Shown piece after piece: positions 31,378 through 39,320 of a stretch of 64,000 nt of DNA. Both the position numbers and the translations under genes were made by a program. This DNA comes from Saccharibacillus kuerlensis DSM 22868 (GTDB taxonomy: Bacteria > Bacillota > Bacilli > Paenibacillales > Paenibacillaceae): NCBI RefSeq assembly GCF_000378145.1, contig NZ_KB899278.1, positions 248,001 to 312,000 of the forward strand, given 5' to 3'. Each line of letters opens with the position of its first letter. Position 1 is the first letter of the stretch. Below the pieces are notes generated by a model, which saw only the letters and a program-made list of their open reading frames with translations, was not told the DNA's origin and made no database searches.

Positions 31378-34278
31378 TCATTCCGCAGCGATATCATTCT
31401 TTCCTTTGCCAAGCTTTGTTCTGGTCTGCAGCGCTTGGCCCAATGGAACTTCAACCTGAATTTCTCCATCAAGATCGGTACGGTGGATAACCGATCCAAT
31501 GTCGTTCAGCCGTTCGATCACCGTATCGCTGGGATGTCCGTAAGTATTGTTTGCGCCGACTGAAATCAGGGAAAGTGCGGGTGACCAGCGGCGAATCCAG
31601 CTTTCGGACGAGGAACCTTTGCTTCCATGGTGCCCGACCTTGAGCACTTCGACCCTGCCTCTTTCGCCGCGCTCATCCAGACGGGAAAGAATGTCCTGTT
31701 CCGCACTCTCTCCTATATCTCCGGTAAACAGGAAGGAATGCCCGTTCATCTCCATTCGGAACACAACCGAATATTCATTCTGCTCCTTCAATTGAGGCAG
31801 AAGACCGGCAAACGTTCCTGACGGATTCAAAAATTCCAATATTGTCCGTTCGTCGGGATTCCAAAGGTCTCCGTCGCGAGGCGCATATACTTCTGCCCCG
31901 AATTTCAACGCCGAAGCTAACAGCCGATCCAAATCTTCTCCGCCGCTGCGTGTACCGTTCATAATCAAGCGGTCCGTCGGAATTTCATCCAGCACCGCAA
32001 GCAGACCGCCGTAATGATCACGATCTCCGTGCGTCAAGATCACGGCATCCAAACGCTGTACGCCTCGTTTTTTCAGCAAAGGCACTACCACATCCCGGCC
32101 GACTTCATAAGGATCAAGACGTCGGCGCCATTCTTCTCCCGGACGTTCGAATCTCACCGTCCCTCCCCCGTCAACAAGCAGATTGCGACCCTCCGGCGTC
32201 GTAATCAGAATAGAATCCCCTTGCCCGACATCCAGCATCTGTACAAGGCCTGCGGAGCTGGGGCGGGGTTGATAGGCGGCGGTAAGCAGGCCGCCCAGAA
32301 CAATGAAGGCCGCGGCGGCATACAGCGGCCTTAACCGATTACGGCGGCTGTCCGGCAGACCGCCGTAACGCACAGCGTGCGTCCTCGGCGGAGCAGCGCC
32401 CGAAGGCGCTCCGCCGAGAGAAGCCGCGGCATGCGATGCTGCCGCGGCGAAGGCCGCGAAGCGGCCGGGGCGGGCCCCTGCTCTGGGCCCGCCGGCGTGC
32501 GCGCGCATCCGGGGCACGCGCGTATGCGATCCGAGCGGCACCGTGTCGCCGCCGAGACCAAGCGCGGCGGCGGAGCCGGGCGACGCCACCTGCCCTTGAA
32601 CGTCCGCCTCGGCGAAGGCGGACGGATCAGGCCGGCGCGCGCGGAGCAGCGCGGCGAGCAGAAATATGCCGCTGAACAAGGCGGCCTCATACAGCATGAT
32701 CCAGCCGGGCGACGGCGACGCCCAGATTGTGCGTGCCCAGCGGATGGAGCCTCCGCCATCCGCGCACCAGAATACGGCGGCGTTGATCAGCCGCACCGGG
32801 TAAGCCGTCCACTCGGCGCCCTGCATCCAAAAGGTGCTTAGAAGCAGCGATACGGCACCGCAAGGGATCGACACCAGACTGATCAGCGGTACAAGCAGCA
32901 AATTGGCGGCCAGCCCGAGCAGCGGATACTGATTGAAGTAATAAATGCCGAGCGGAAAAGAGACAAGATCCGCAACGAGCGAAATCGCCGCTGCAGCCGC
33001 AATCGTCTTGGGCAAAAAGAACAAAATCCGCTGCATGGGGCGGACTAGGAGAATAATACCTGCTGTAACGACGAACGACAGTTGGAAGCTGATTGCAGTC
33101 AAATAAGACGGTTCCCACAGCAGCATGAGCAGCGCGGCCAAGCATAAAATATGCAGCCCATCCTTTAGCCACCCGCGCCTTGCCGCATACAGCCCGATCA
33201 TGCTCATCAGCCCGGCACGAACAGCGGACGGCGACGCTCCGGTCAGCAGTACATACGGCGGAATAGCGCATAGCGCCGCAATTAACGACGATTCCTTGGT
33301 AACGCCAGTCCGGCGAAGCAGTAGAAGCACGGCTCCCACATACAGCCCTACGTGCATACCGGAAATGGCCAGTACATGCGTCATTCCAAGTCTCACGAAG
33401 TTTTGGTAGGTGTCAGGGTCCAGACCATCCCTCAGCCCTAACAGCAGTCCCTGCATGTAACCGGCTCCTACGCCGGGATACAGCTCCGATAATTTGTCCG
33501 CAAGAAATTCGCGCAAGTCATCCCGATGCCGCAGCAGCAGAAATTTGTCTTCTGCGTGATCGGCCGTCTCCACACTGGACGCGCCTCCGGCTTTTGCTAT
33601 CCAATAAATTCGCTTCTCCCGCAAATAGCTGCGGTAATCAAAAGCACCGAAATTGCGAGCTTCCGCCGGAAGCTCCAGATCGGCCGAAACGATCAGTCGG
33701 TCGCCTCTTTTCCATGAAGTGGCGACATCCTGTTCTTCCTCGGCTGCCAGTTTAACACGCACAATGATCTTTTCCGATCGCCGCAGCGTAATGGACTCAT
33801 TATTATCATGATTTCCCGGTATATCAGTCCGACTTGTTCCGTCGGCTCCGACTGCTGCACTCCGTAAATTTTCTTCGTCTGCTTCAGTCTTTTGTGAGCT
33901 TTGAGTCCCCATCCGATCGAACACCCGCTCAAGATCCATTTCGAACATCGCCAGATCGCCATCGATTTTCGCGGGACCCGCCATCTTGCCTTCCAGACGA
34001 ACACCAGGGTAGCCGCCTTCTTCCTGCACGCCGAGCACTTCCGGCAGTATGGACAAGCTGCGGATATCACGGAACGTGCCGTAACCGGCTGCCAGCCACA
34101 GCGCCAAACCAAAGATCAACAGCCTTTTTAACGGCAGCTGTGCGAACGCCGCTGCAGCAAACCATATAAACGTTAAACCGGCCAGTACAGCGGTTAACTG
34201 CAGGCCGCCGTACAAATGAGCCGCAGCCGTTCCTGCCAGCCAGCAGACCGTAAATACAACCAAAGGTCGTCGATTCAT
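31378..34278 (-). CDS. comEC: DNA internalization competence protein ComEC/Rec2
   Basis: Membrane channel for single-stranded DNA uptake in transformation, 966 residues against about 780 in Bacillus. Order: N-terminal DUF4131 part with membrane helices and an OB-like exterior domain (about 100-230), the competence domain with many helices (LRDGLDPDTYQNF, GMTHVLAISGMHVGLYVG, GASPSAVRAGLMS), then a C-terminal metallo-beta-lactamase domain (LDVGQGDSILI, LTHGDRDHYGG, GDIGESAEQDIL, VLKVGHHGSKGSS). A very GC-rich Ala/Gly/Arg/Pro linker of about 100 residues (roughly 543-646) lies between the last helices and the nuclease-like domain and explains the extra length. It follows comEA by ten bases. Confidence 0.96.
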   Translation of the reverse strand: MNRRPLVVFTVCWLAGTAAAHLYGGLQLTAVLAGLTFIWFAAAAFAQLPLKRLLIFGLALWLAAGYGTFRDIRSLSILPEVLGVQEEGGYPGVRLEGKMAGPAKIDGDLAMFEMDLERVFDRMGTQSSQKTEADEENLRSAAVGADGTSRTDIPGNHDNNESITLRRSEKIIVRVKLAAEEEQDVATSWKRGDRLIVSADLELPAEARNFGAFDYRSYLREKRIYWIAKAGGASSVETADHAEDKFLLLRHRDDLREFLADKLSELYPGVGAGYMQGLLLGLRDGLDPDTYQNFVRLGMTHVLAISGMHVGLYVGAVLLLLRRTGVTKESSLIAALCAIPPYVLLTGASPSAVRAGLMSMIGLYAARRGWLKDGLHILCLAALLMLLWEPSYLTAISFQLSFVVTAGIILLVRPMQRILFFLPKTIAAAAAISLVADLVSFPLGIYYFNQYPLLGLAANLLLVPLISLVSIPCGAVSLLLSTFWMQGAEWTAYPVRLINAAVFWCADGGGSIRWARTIWASPSPGWIMLYEAALFSGIFLLAALLRARRPDPSAFAEADVQGQVASPGSAAALGLGGDTVPLGSHTRVPRMRAHAGGPRAGARPGRFAAFAAAASHAAASLGGAPSGAAPPRTHAVRYGGLPDSRRNRLRPLYAAAAFIVLGGLLTAAYQPRPSSAGLVQMLDVGQGDSILITTPEGRNLLVDGGGTVRFERPGEEWRRRLDPYEVGRDVVVPLLKKRGVQRLDAVILTHGDRDHYGGLLAVLDEIPTDRLIMNGTRSGGEDLDRLLASALKFGAEVYAPRDGDLWNPDERTILEFLNPSGTFAGLLPQLKEQNEYSVVFRMEMNGHSFLFTGDIGESAEQDILSRLDERGERGRVEVLKVGHHGSKGSSSESWIRRWSPALSLISVGANNTYGHPSDTVIERLNDIGSVIHRTDLDGEIQVEVPLGQALQTRTKLGKGKNDIAAE

Positions 34279-34288
34279 GTCTTCTCTC

Positions 34289-34978
34289 CTACAGGGCCAG
34301 ATCCGGCAGCATCTTCTCCAACATTTTGGGGCCGATGCCTTTCACTTTAACGATCTCGGTTACGTCGCGAAAAGAACCGTTCTGCGTGCGGTAATCGACG
34401 ATAGCCTGTGCCTTTTTCTCGCCGATTCCCGGAAGATCCATCAACTGCTGAATATTGGCGGAATTGATATGGATTTTGCCGTCATCGACCGTTCTCGTAT
34501 TTTGGGCTGTCGTATTTTGGGCTGCTGCTTCCACGCCTTCGACCGGTTGATAAATGTCGCCTTTCGCATTCGCAGCCGTTACCGCAGCAGCTGTATTCGG
34601 ACCCGGAGCAGTCGGGCTTGCCGCTTGAGCCTCGCTGCCAGGCGGCTCTTTGATGGTCCCGCTTTTTACTGCGTCGTTTTTTTGATTAACCTGTTCTTTT
34701 TTGAGAGCAGCCTCATCTATCTTTTGAGTGACCCCATCCTTTTGTCCAGCTTCTGCGCCGGATTTACCGTCTGCATAGTCTGCCGCTCCATCCTTCTGCG
34801 AAGCCTCTGCAGCTTCAACCTCTTCATCCGTTCCTTCCTGAATGGCCAGTGCATGCTCAATCCGCTCATTCAGCGATTCCCAAGGAAGCCCTTCTGCTTC
34901 TTCACCTCCTGCGATTACAAGCACACCCGCTCCCAGTACGGCCGACATGCAGGCCGCCCATAACCATTCCTTTTTCAT
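34289..34978 (-). CDS. comEA: competence DNA-binding protein ComEA
   Basis: Membrane-anchored DNA receptor for transformation. From ATG 34978 (after GGGAGG at nine bases) it has 229 residues: an N-terminal anchor helix (WLWAACMSAVLGAGVLVIAG), a long Ala/Glu/Lys-rich linker (about 30-150) and the C-terminal double helix-hairpin-helix domain (NSANIQQLMDLPGIGEKKA; VKGIGPKMLEKML). A longer in-frame start near 35122-35134 with an AGGAG could add about 50 polar residues before the anchor. It is followed by comEC. A structured leader with terminator precedes it. Confidence 0.93.
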   Translation of the reverse strand: MKKEWLWAACMSAVLGAGVLVIAGGEEAEGLPWESLNERIEHALAIQEGTDEEVEAAEASQKDGAADYADGKSGAEAGQKDGVTQKIDEAALKKEQVNQKNDAVKSGTIKEPPGSEAQAASPTAPGPNTAAAVTAANAKGDIYQPVEGVEAAAQNTTAQNTRTVDDGKIHINSANIQQLMDLPGIGEKKAQAIVDYRTQNGSFRDVTEIVKVKGIGPKMLEKMLPDLAL

Positions 34979-35157: not shown

Positions 35158-35370
35158 CAAAAAGCCTCTCGTCCCTAGCGTATAAATCGCTAGGGACGAG
35201 AGGCAGTGCTTCCCGTGTATTCCCCTAGTTGACGGCTTTGCGTGCTTCGCATGCCGTCGACTGGTTCATCCGATAACGGAGATGATCCGCTGCCTATTCG
35301 GCAGAACACTGCAATAATATGGAACCCATTCAACTGCATTTATTATAGAAAAAGAGCGGCTTCAAGTCAA
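35158..35370 (-). promoter_or_regulatory. T-box-derived leader with terminator upstream of comEA
   Basis: Read leftwards: a consensus promoter (TTGACT 35370-35365, 17 bases, TATAAT 35347-35342), three small hairpins (for example CTGCC-GAATA-GGCAG at 35304-35290 and GACGGC...GCCGTC at 35258-35231), then CTAGGGGAATACACGGGAAG, then a perfect 17-bp terminator stem (35164-35180 with 35188-35204) and TTTTT. The block from CACGGGAAGC through the terminator is nearly the same as in the leuS T-box (39037 to 38983). The T-box core AGGGTGGTACCACG is altered to AGGGGAATACACG, losing the UGG that pairs with the tRNA end, while CTAGGG can still pair with CCCTAG of the terminator as an antiterminator. Stem I with a specifier loop is missing. 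Confidence 0.65.
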
Positions 35371-35552
35371 CGACCAAGCTTTTTCTGCGCAGCTGTGCCT
35401 TAGGGCTCTCATCCAAAATTTTCATTTAAACCTTCAAAATTTTCACCTGAACCTTCTGCCCGCTGAAACTTCTCATCCTCAGCTGTATTCATCAGATTCA
35501 ACGTTTTAGAGACGCAGCTTTAGAGCTGTATCTTATCTGTCAAAAATCGATT

Positions 35553-36068
35553 TTAAGATATCGGCATTGAAACCGGAGTAGGCGGCTGATAATGTTCCAT
35601 GCGACGGAATACAATCCCTTTTTGCTCCATCATCCCATGCACTTTGCCGCTGTCTTTTGGGTAGGCCCGGCAGTAGACTACTTCCGTAATGCCGCTGTTA
35701 GCCAGCATGTTGGCACAGGTCCAGCACGGCTCGTCAGTAACATATACCGTCGAGCCTTCGCGATCGGCACGGTCGGTAAACAGCAGCAGATTTTGCTCTG
35801 CATGGATTGTGCGTACGCATCTTTGCTTTTTAACAACCTTCTCTTCGCCGCCGCTGTGAACCAACTCGTATTCTTCGGCGATCATGCAGCCTGCTTCCGA
35901 GCAGTCCGGCACACCCATCGGCGCGCCGTTATACGCTGTACCGAGCAGCTTCTTGCCCTGCACGAGCACAGCGCCGACCTGACGTCTCGGACACTGTGAA
36001 CGCGTCGACACCATAAAGGCGATATCCATAAAATACGTATCCCAATCCTTGCGCGGACTGCTTCCCAT
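35553..36068 (-). CDS. comEB: dCMP deaminase family protein ComEB
   Basis: Zinc-dependent deoxycytidylate deaminase of the ComEB type, making dUMP for dTTP synthesis; encoded with competence genes but not needed for DNA uptake. Zinc motif TIHAEQN and PCWTCANM are present, as is the N-terminal CPRRQVGAVLV and the substrate-loop GTAYNGAPMG. About 171 residues from ATG 36068, seven bases after GGGGGG; an upstream ATG at 36089 overlaps that site. A segment with VHSGGEEKVVKKQR (about 80-93) is longer than in Bacillus. Gene order here is comEB-comEA-comEC instead of comEA-comEB-comEC. Confidence 0.93.
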   Translation of the reverse strand: MGSSPRKDWDTYFMDIAFMVSTRSQCPRRQVGAVLVQGKKLLGTAYNGAPMGVPDCSEAGCMIAEEYELVHSGGEEKVVKKQRCVRTIHAEQNLLLFTDRADREGSTVYVTDEPCWTCANMLANSGITEVVYCRAYPKDSGKVHGMMEQKGIVFRRMEHYQPPTPVSMPIS

Positions 36069-36218
36069 TGAGATCCCCCCGTTTTTCATCTGTCAGCCGG
36101 CCTGCCCGAATGAAGCGGAGACCACCGCCCTCTTATTCTATCGCAAATATATGCAGCGTTTACGGCGTATACACTAATAATCGACTTCATACTTGACGTT
36201 CAACATTTTCACACACCA

Positions 36219-36305: not shown

Positions 36306-38762
<2,457 letters not shown>

Positions 38763-38979
38763 CGTCATCTGTCCCTTCGCTGCTGGATCTCCCTCTGTAC
38801 CAGGCCGTGTACGCAAACTCACTGAAGTGCATCTTTACCTGCCTTTTCGTCCTCTACAGCGTCACTCCCCCTCGACGTGCCCCGGCACGCCTTCGGAAAA
38901 GTTCCTTGTATAGATCGAAAATTCAGTCAAATCTGCTCCCTTCGGAGTCTGCATACACGGCCTAAAAGCGGAGCTGAAA

Positions 38980-39320
38980 TCAAAAAGCCCCTCGCCCCCG
39001 GCGTCATTAACGCCAGGGACGAGAGGCATTGCTTCCCGTGGTACCACCCTGATTAGCGGACAAAATGATTCTGCCGCTCACTCAAACATCCGATATCGGG
39101 GATGAGCCGATGCGGCTGAACGCGTGCCTGCCGTGATCCGGGGCCGCCGTCTGTCCGCATATCTCCGAGGCGAGTTCGTACAGGGTCCGCTACCGGCTTC
39201 CACCAACCGCCGGCTCTCTTGAAAACGTCCGCCTGCCTACTAATCCTCATCATCGACGAGCAAATCTTTAGTTGCGCTTGCAATGCCCCTATTATATAGA
39301 AAACAAAAGCGAAAAGTCAA
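38980..39320 (-). promoter_or_regulatory. leucine T-box leader of leuS with its promoter
   Basis: Read leftwards: promoter TTGACT (39320-39315), 18 bases, TATAAT (39296-39291); stem I with TTAGTAGGC (loop E AGTA) and GAACTCGCC, whose CTC at 39174-39172 is a leucine specifier codon; stem III around CCGATATCGG; the T-box AGGGTGGTACCACG at 39050-39037; and a GC-rich terminator (38983-39028) with TTTTT. Uncharged tRNA-Leu would stabilise the antiterminator and allow leuS transcription. Confidence 0.93.

Follow-up and report, generated by a model that had tools for sequence, protein, structure and literature searches.

A putative T-box-derived leader, apparently without tRNA sensing, before the comEA-comEC genes of Saccharibacillus

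The window analyzed here, a stretch of 64,000 nucleotides from Saccharibacillus kuerlensis DSM 22868, carries a leader before comEA and comEC that is probably a duplicate of the leuS T-box, now serving as a tRNA-independent transcription attenuator for these DNA-uptake genes. The antiterminator and terminator letters of the leader are nearly identical to those of the leuS T-box 3.8 kb away, reading CTAGGG-GAATACA-CGGGAAGCACTGCCTCTCGTCCCTAG against CAGGG-TGGTACCA-CGGGAAGCAATGCCTCTCGTCCCTG in the alignment of the window, and the leader also keeps the IIA/B element and stem III, which upholds the origin from the leuS T-box that an earlier note on this DNA had proposed. Comparison of sequences establishes the homology, the loss of the tRNA-reading parts, the covariation of both folds, selection on the element and its position before comEA; attenuation itself we infer, with either something other than the tRNA 3' end tipping the balance or a fixed low read-through being sufficient.

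Architecture of the leader and its T-box modules

The leader measures about 175 nt, counted from a predicted transcription start, and the 201-nt stretch that contains it folds far better than shuffled versions (z -8.07, with 0 of 200 shuffles as good). Its parts are collected in Table 1. The consensus promoter and the 17-bp terminator before comEA that had been read earlier were both confirmed. Across the orthologous leaders, the -10 box TATAAT is found in eight of nine and the -35 box TTGACT in seven of nine, the G012 leader having no clear sigma-A promoter and the G003 leader a -10 box only. Upstream of the leader promoter, the window also holds two copies of GAAAATTTTG whose starts are 21 bases apart (35414-35444, minus strand); this repeat was not seen in the 140 bases upstream of each of the other eight leaders.

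Table 1. Positions in the window of the leader, its parts, the neighboring genes and the leuS T-box.
Feature	Position	Strand	Remarks
Sigma-A-type promoter, TTGACT-17 nt-TATAAT	35342..35370	(-)	Matches the consensus at 11 of 12 letters
IIA/B pseudoknot-like element CGGATCATCTCCGTTATCGGATGA (T-box F-box region)	35266..35289	(-)	All 8 pairs the same in 8 distinct sequences; 21 of 24 positions fixed across 9 leaders
Stem III hairpin	35231..35258	(-)	Changes on both sides in all 6 basal pairs
Stem III tip, GCG-AAGCA-CGC	35240..35250	(-)	Same letters in 9 of 9 leaders; AAGNA loops also tip stem III of many Paenibacillales leuS T-boxes
Antiterminator, helices A1 (CTAGGG:CCCTAG) and A2	35190..35228	(-)	
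Bulge GAATACA at the place of T-box UGGNACC, without UGGN	35216..35222	(-)	UGGN absent in 9 of 9 leaders, read by eye
Intrinsic terminator, 17 bp (35204..35164), then T5 run	35159..35204	(-)	
comEA (HHH_3)	34289..34978	(-)	Start 34978 chosen by homology
comEC (Competence PF03772)	31378..34278	(-)	10 bases after comEA
comEB (dCMP deaminase fold)	35553..36089	(-)	Upstream of the leader
Canonical leuS T-box, likely parent	39012..39262	(-)	Rfam 98.1 bits
leuS promoter, TTGACT-18-TATAAT	39291..39320	(-)	
leuS	36306..38822	(-)	

Against the Rfam T-box model RF00230, which has a gathering cut-off of 93 bits, the comEA leader scores 18.4 bits and falls below the cut-off, while the leuS T-box lies above it; 17 of the 19 T-boxes in the window's genome also fall below, at 30.5-90.4 bits. 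Rfam families gave only this weak T-box match and others far below their cut-offs in the leader, and in 20 comEA loci of relatives none reached its gathering threshold. The covariance search suggested in the earlier note thus returned a weak match only, yet alignment shows IIA/B, stem III, the antiterminator and the terminator all kept.

The missing parts are those by which a T-box reads tRNA. Stem I with its specifier codon is absent, the distance from the -10 box to IIA/B being only about 12-25 nt in five of the nine species, and also absent is the stem II S-turn, which would not fit between promoter and IIA/B in these five compact leaders. The UGGN that pairs with the tRNA NCCA end is absent from the antiterminator bulge in all nine leaders, confirming the previously noted change of TGGTACC to GAATAC; the CUGGGG of the G011 and G013 leaders is paired within helix A1 and is not a bulge UGGN. 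The description of the leader as one from which stem I had gone was correct but incomplete, as it missed IIA/B and the stem III hairpin; IIA/B and the tip of this hairpin are the most conserved parts.

Among the retained modules, the eight pairs of IIA/B are kept in all leaders, but as they are invariant they have no covariation support. The flanking purines of stem III (RRRNG ... AA in T-boxes) are only partly kept. The antiterminator formed by A1 and A2 competes with the terminator, as in a T-box, and the leader has the sequence hallmarks of an attenuator in general, namely two mutually exclusive folds, both under selection, before a gene.

Covariation and constraint in the two copies

Covariation was evaluated on eight distinct sequences of one genus, in which inherited changes count more than once, using an alignment made from sequence alone and the structure of the window's own copy. 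In the antiterminator fold, 96.8% of the cells are paired and nine pairs have changed on both sides, and in the terminator fold 98.0% are paired and 12 pairs have changed on both sides; none of 500 shuffles reached either value for either fold. Slid controls gave 36-51% paired cells with at most two both-side pairs for the antiterminator, and at most 47% with at most three for the terminator. The number of further pair types was no better than in shuffles, 320 of 500 (antiterminator) and 383 of 500 (terminator) reaching the leader value. Across the leaders the A1 strand reads CTAGGG, CTGGGG or CCGGGG against the partners CCCTAG, CCCCGG and CCCTGG, and because the CTAGGG strand lies outside the terminator, its matched changes support the antiterminator on their own. 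The matched changes in the antiterminator helix thus stand as the earlier note had them, but CTAGGG:CCCTAG is not special to the comEA leader: it occurs in the leuS T-box of four of the nine leader-bearing genomes, CTAGGG precedes TGG in 20 of 20 leuS T-boxes fetched from other genera, and it is the leuS T-boxes of the window and of four more of the nine that have departed from it.

Constraint is swapped between the two copies. The leuS T-boxes of all nine leader-bearing genomes have GGGTGGTACCACGGGAAGCA and GCCTCTCGTCCCT without any change, but their stem III tips differ, and three of them have no tip left. In the comEA leader, by contrast, the bulge of about 5-9 nt is drifting and unalignable, while the 11-nt tip GCGAAGCACGC and IIA/B are frozen; for comparison, of the 162 four-fold sites of leuS only 40 do not vary among these nine genomes. 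Mean pairwise identity is 0.74 for the comEA leader against 0.81 for the leuS T-box half, so that the leader is the less conserved overall and the point is where constraint lies, not its amount. The conservation of the tip and IIA/B could serve folding alone.

This swapped constraint is not the pattern of decay. That the leader is a decaying or neutral remnant of a duplicated T-box, as the earlier note had allowed, might be suggested by its 18.4 bits in Rfam, its lost UGGN and stems I and II, and its identity below that of the leuS copy. Decay is nevertheless unlikely because the antiterminator, terminator and stem III keep compensatory changes, and such a remnant appears highly improbable for an element kept in nine species whose tip and IIA/B are more frozen than in the working leuS T-box. 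The leader is instead attenuator-like in form before comEA-comEC and conserved with covariation in nine species, the lack of which in relatives would have refuted the earlier note.

The predicted energies of the antiterminator range from -11.9 to -19.5 kcal/mol for the eight distinct comEA leaders, against -14.4 to -14.6 kcal/mol for the six leuS copies folded. A stabilized, always-on antiterminator was rejected on this resemblance; as the antiterminator has roughly the stability of its tRNA-free leuS counterpart, the default state is expected to be off.

Distribution, gene order and an older element after comEB

The leader sequence pattern matches seven contigs in a public genome collection, all from Saccharibacillus, and no viral contig. 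A search with the leader as DNA places it before comEA in nine of 16 Saccharibacillus genomes, the other seven matching only at the leuS T-box; it lies between comEB and comEA in eight of the nine, and in G013 other DNA precedes it. A covariance model built from the nine leaders was run with strict filters over 295 genomes of the family, with matches listed to about 74 bits: the nine score at least 112.7 bits, the next best locus 105.8 bits, and the 21 loci ranked below the nine are leuS T-boxes that retain UGGUACC. Within the genome of the window, leuS comes second to the leader among full-length matches, at 89.7 bits.

A scan with the leader model R1 of 34 comEA loci from leader-free genomes, including eight loci from seven Saccharibacillus genomes, found no comparable element before comEA. 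Of its seven matches, the two strongest (24.4 and 17.7 bits) fall on terminators downstream of comEB, two more, scoring 13.1 and 11.2 bits, fall on the end of leuS (L127, L131), and the remaining three reach at most 8.3 bits; an ancestral T-box before comEA in relatives was therefore rejected. That no canonical T-box was found before comEA in relatives (these 34 loci and the 20 searched with Rfam) favors the earlier note. Five leader-free genomes of the genus (L058, L059, L060, L063, L069) have a different conserved stretch before comEA, CTCCTATGCGATGGGAG, followed by a second stem-loop and not T-box-like.

In a leuS tree, a weakly supported branch puts G014, which is leader-free and has the ancestral gene order, inside the group of nine; a topology in which the nine are monophyletic is compatible with the data (p-AU 0.263), and the most economical explanation is that the leader was gained once. 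Beyond the two hexamers, the promoters of leader and leuS are more alike than shuffles in three of the six genomes compared (equalled there by 3, 4 and 44 out of 5000 shuffles; by 343, 842 and 1521 in the others). Duplication of promoter and leader together is thus likely, though not proved.

The relatives read have the order leuS-comEA-comEB-comEC, and eight of the nine leader-bearing species the order leuS-comEB-leader-comEA-comEC. In leader-free genomes, a hairpin-terminator of the GG-AAGAA-CC type follows comEB in 28 of 28 readable stretches (L055, L058-L060, L063, L065, L116-L127, L129-L131, L134, L135, L137-L141), from 32 loci surveyed, two of them without comEB and two with too little of it. 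The 3' strand of this hairpin doubles as the 5' strand of the terminator. With the inner two pairs (GG:CC) fixed by the search, the third pair is standard in 25 of 28, against 63% with flanks swapped between genomes, and the fourth in 28 of 28 (G-C 21, A-T 7), against 81%; the hairpin is thus modestly supported, and its stem shows some compensatory changes.

The gap from comEA to comEC is about 17 bases or less in each of the nine leader species, so the older element is not between them. A stricter hairpin pattern was found at the com locus in none of the eight leader-bearing genomes searched, and it also missed six of 14 others. The T-box-derived leader occupies the place of the older element in eight of the nine and appears to replace it. 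Like the leader, the post-comEB element of other Paenibacillaceae is an antiterminator-like hairpin overlapping a terminator before an uptake gene, here comEC; unlike the leader, it has no IIA/B or stem III and consists of a short hairpin with an AAGAA-type loop, and no sequence relation to the leuS T-box was seen. The likeness of this loop to the T-box tip may be chance, because such loops are also able to base-pair with the U-rich stretch that ends their own terminator.

The same AAGAA pattern was observed upstream of recA (L325, L329, L332, L336, L342, L343, L348; in the window's genome at G000:C1:37583-37625, minus strand), with recA identified by a Pfam RecA match to the start that L332 and L336 share, and by eye for the others, and upstream of a TerD-domain gene (L339). 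In 22 genomes there are 52 matches against two for the reversed pattern, a control that ignores terminator symmetry, and 29 of 30 loci have a standard pair next to the fixed GG:CC. These loci may be a competence or DNA-repair set, or may only share a common terminator shape.

Possible inputs and comparison with known systems

The tip of stem III appears to be older than the leader. An AAGNA pentaloop with at least three closing pairs is present in 16 of 20 leuS T-boxes from nine other genera of the family, and in 33 of the 57 read from 60 genomes at order level; of the remainder, seven have a two-pair AAGNA, two a GAGNA loop and 15 neither, so that by the loose count the tip is present in 42 of 57. 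In L177 it is letter-identical to that of the comEA leader. Within the genus, the strict tip is found in none of nine leuS T-boxes of leader-bearing genomes (two of nine by the loose rule) against seven of seven of leader-free ones; since all these counts come from related genomes, they are not independent events. Outside the order, 17 leuS T-boxes gave no strict tip and three loose ones (of 21 loci, four showed no T-box to the pattern used). For genes other than leuS, neither form was found in 15 T-boxes of the window's genome (three of 18 loci unread) or in 19 of G039 and G033 (nine of 28 unread). On this evidence, namely AAGNA loops in many Paenibacillales leuS T-boxes, the tip is ancestral, and the inherited parts look as if divided between the leuS T-box and the comEA leader. 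A strict tie of the tip to leuS-comEA linkage was rejected, as several of the 15 tip-less cases have comEA 3-4 kb from leuS.

The pentaloop is thus found in many Paenibacillales leuS T-boxes (L142-L191, L247-L272) and in none of the other T-boxes read, a distribution that suggests an unrecognized contact site on leuS T-boxes. More speculatively, the tip would be a second input site, and Saccharibacillus would have split the inputs, the leuS T-box keeping tRNA sensing and losing the tip and the comEA leader doing the opposite; we regard this as doubtful. A trans-acting factor that reads the tip hairpins might also read the AAGAA hairpins before comEC and recA, and, if true, DNA uptake would be controlled by a new route.

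In the mechanism that we favor, the leuS T-box leader would have been duplicated, perhaps with its promoter, and would then have shed stem I, stem II and the UGGN bulge. Transcription would begin a short way upstream of IIA/B, and the nascent RNA would first fold IIA/B, stem III and the antiterminator. Should the antiterminator not be held, its 3' strand would refold into the terminator and comEA-comEC would be off, with read-through turning them on. The frozen IIA/B and stem III tip would receive an input, be it a protein, an RNA or a small molecule, in place of the tRNA 3' end. The distance from terminator to comEA ATG is 35-47 nt in three of the eight species measured (35-179 nt overall), which leaves little room for another promoter, so that there comEA transcription probably crosses the terminator.

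A less probable but serious alternative is an attenuator with a fixed set-point, in which no input is received, read-through is constantly low, the genes are shielded from upstream transcription, and IIA/B and stem III merely aid folding. The strong terminator, an antiterminator of leuS-like stability and the fact that no ligand or partner was found agree with it, but an 11-nt invariant loop and a compensated antiterminator strand would be superfluous for a fixed terminator. The frozen tip and IIA/B thus point to a non-tRNA input over fixed read-through, short of proof, as sequence does not by itself separate a regulated attenuator from a fixed partial terminator.

Continued response to tRNA seems unlikely, whether to tRNA-Leu or to a different one, and whether binding is by the stem III tip or by IIA/B. 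The discriminator architecture is inherited and the tip is typical of leuS T-boxes in Paenibacillales, but specifier, stem I, stem II and UGGN are all lacking, and eight tRNA-Leu genes of the window's genome, out of 12 class II tRNA genes retrieved, contain no more than 5 nt of exact complement to the tip, G-U pairs not counted. Pairing of the tip with tRNA-Leu was rejected on this ground. Similarly, there is little to favor a short terminated transcript acting in trans as a small RNA: its own promoter in most species, compact structure, frozen loop and strong terminator would suit such a role, but the leader lies directly before comEA on the same strand in nine of nine, and its antiterminator strand, needless for a trans-acting RNA, is under selection.

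The leader offers a natural example of a T-box that seems to have given up both contacts with tRNA but has remained under selection. It shows which T-box modules carry constraint without tRNA, namely IIA/B and the stem III tip, whose role is directly testable. Together with the post-comEB element, it suggests that DNA-uptake genes in Paenibacillaceae often stand behind RNA attenuator-like elements, one of which has been exchanged for another. Among the matches listed in a literature search that left subscription journals mostly outside its coverage, there was no report of a comEA T-box or of a T-box without stem I. In the portions available to us, PMC4695836 treats tRNA-independent read-through only as a background to subtract, and PMC5171806 names comEA and T-boxes in unrelated places.

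Compared with a T-box riboswitch of the leuS type (RF00230), the leader shares IIA/B, stem III, A1 and A2 with a bulge, and a competing terminator, but it has no stem I, specifier, stem II or UGGN in any of the nine species and it precedes DNA-uptake genes. T-boxes with missing or repeated modules are known, and the accessible parts of two sources describe short-stem-I, partial and tandem kinds (PMC7583486, PMC7778990). The short-stem-I forms still bind tRNA, unlike the comEA leader, which lacks both tRNA base-pairing sites; partial tandem T-boxes are said there to act in unknown ways. The parts of TBDB (PMC7778990) and of Wels et al. 2008 (PMC2494555) covered here describe no T-box without tRNA sensing. 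The duplication routes of Wels et al. 2008, as far as that portion goes, resemble the history proposed here in that a leader is duplicated and inserted before another gene; their four routes, however, keep or change amino-acid specificity and none loses tRNA sensing, as the comEA leader appears to have done.
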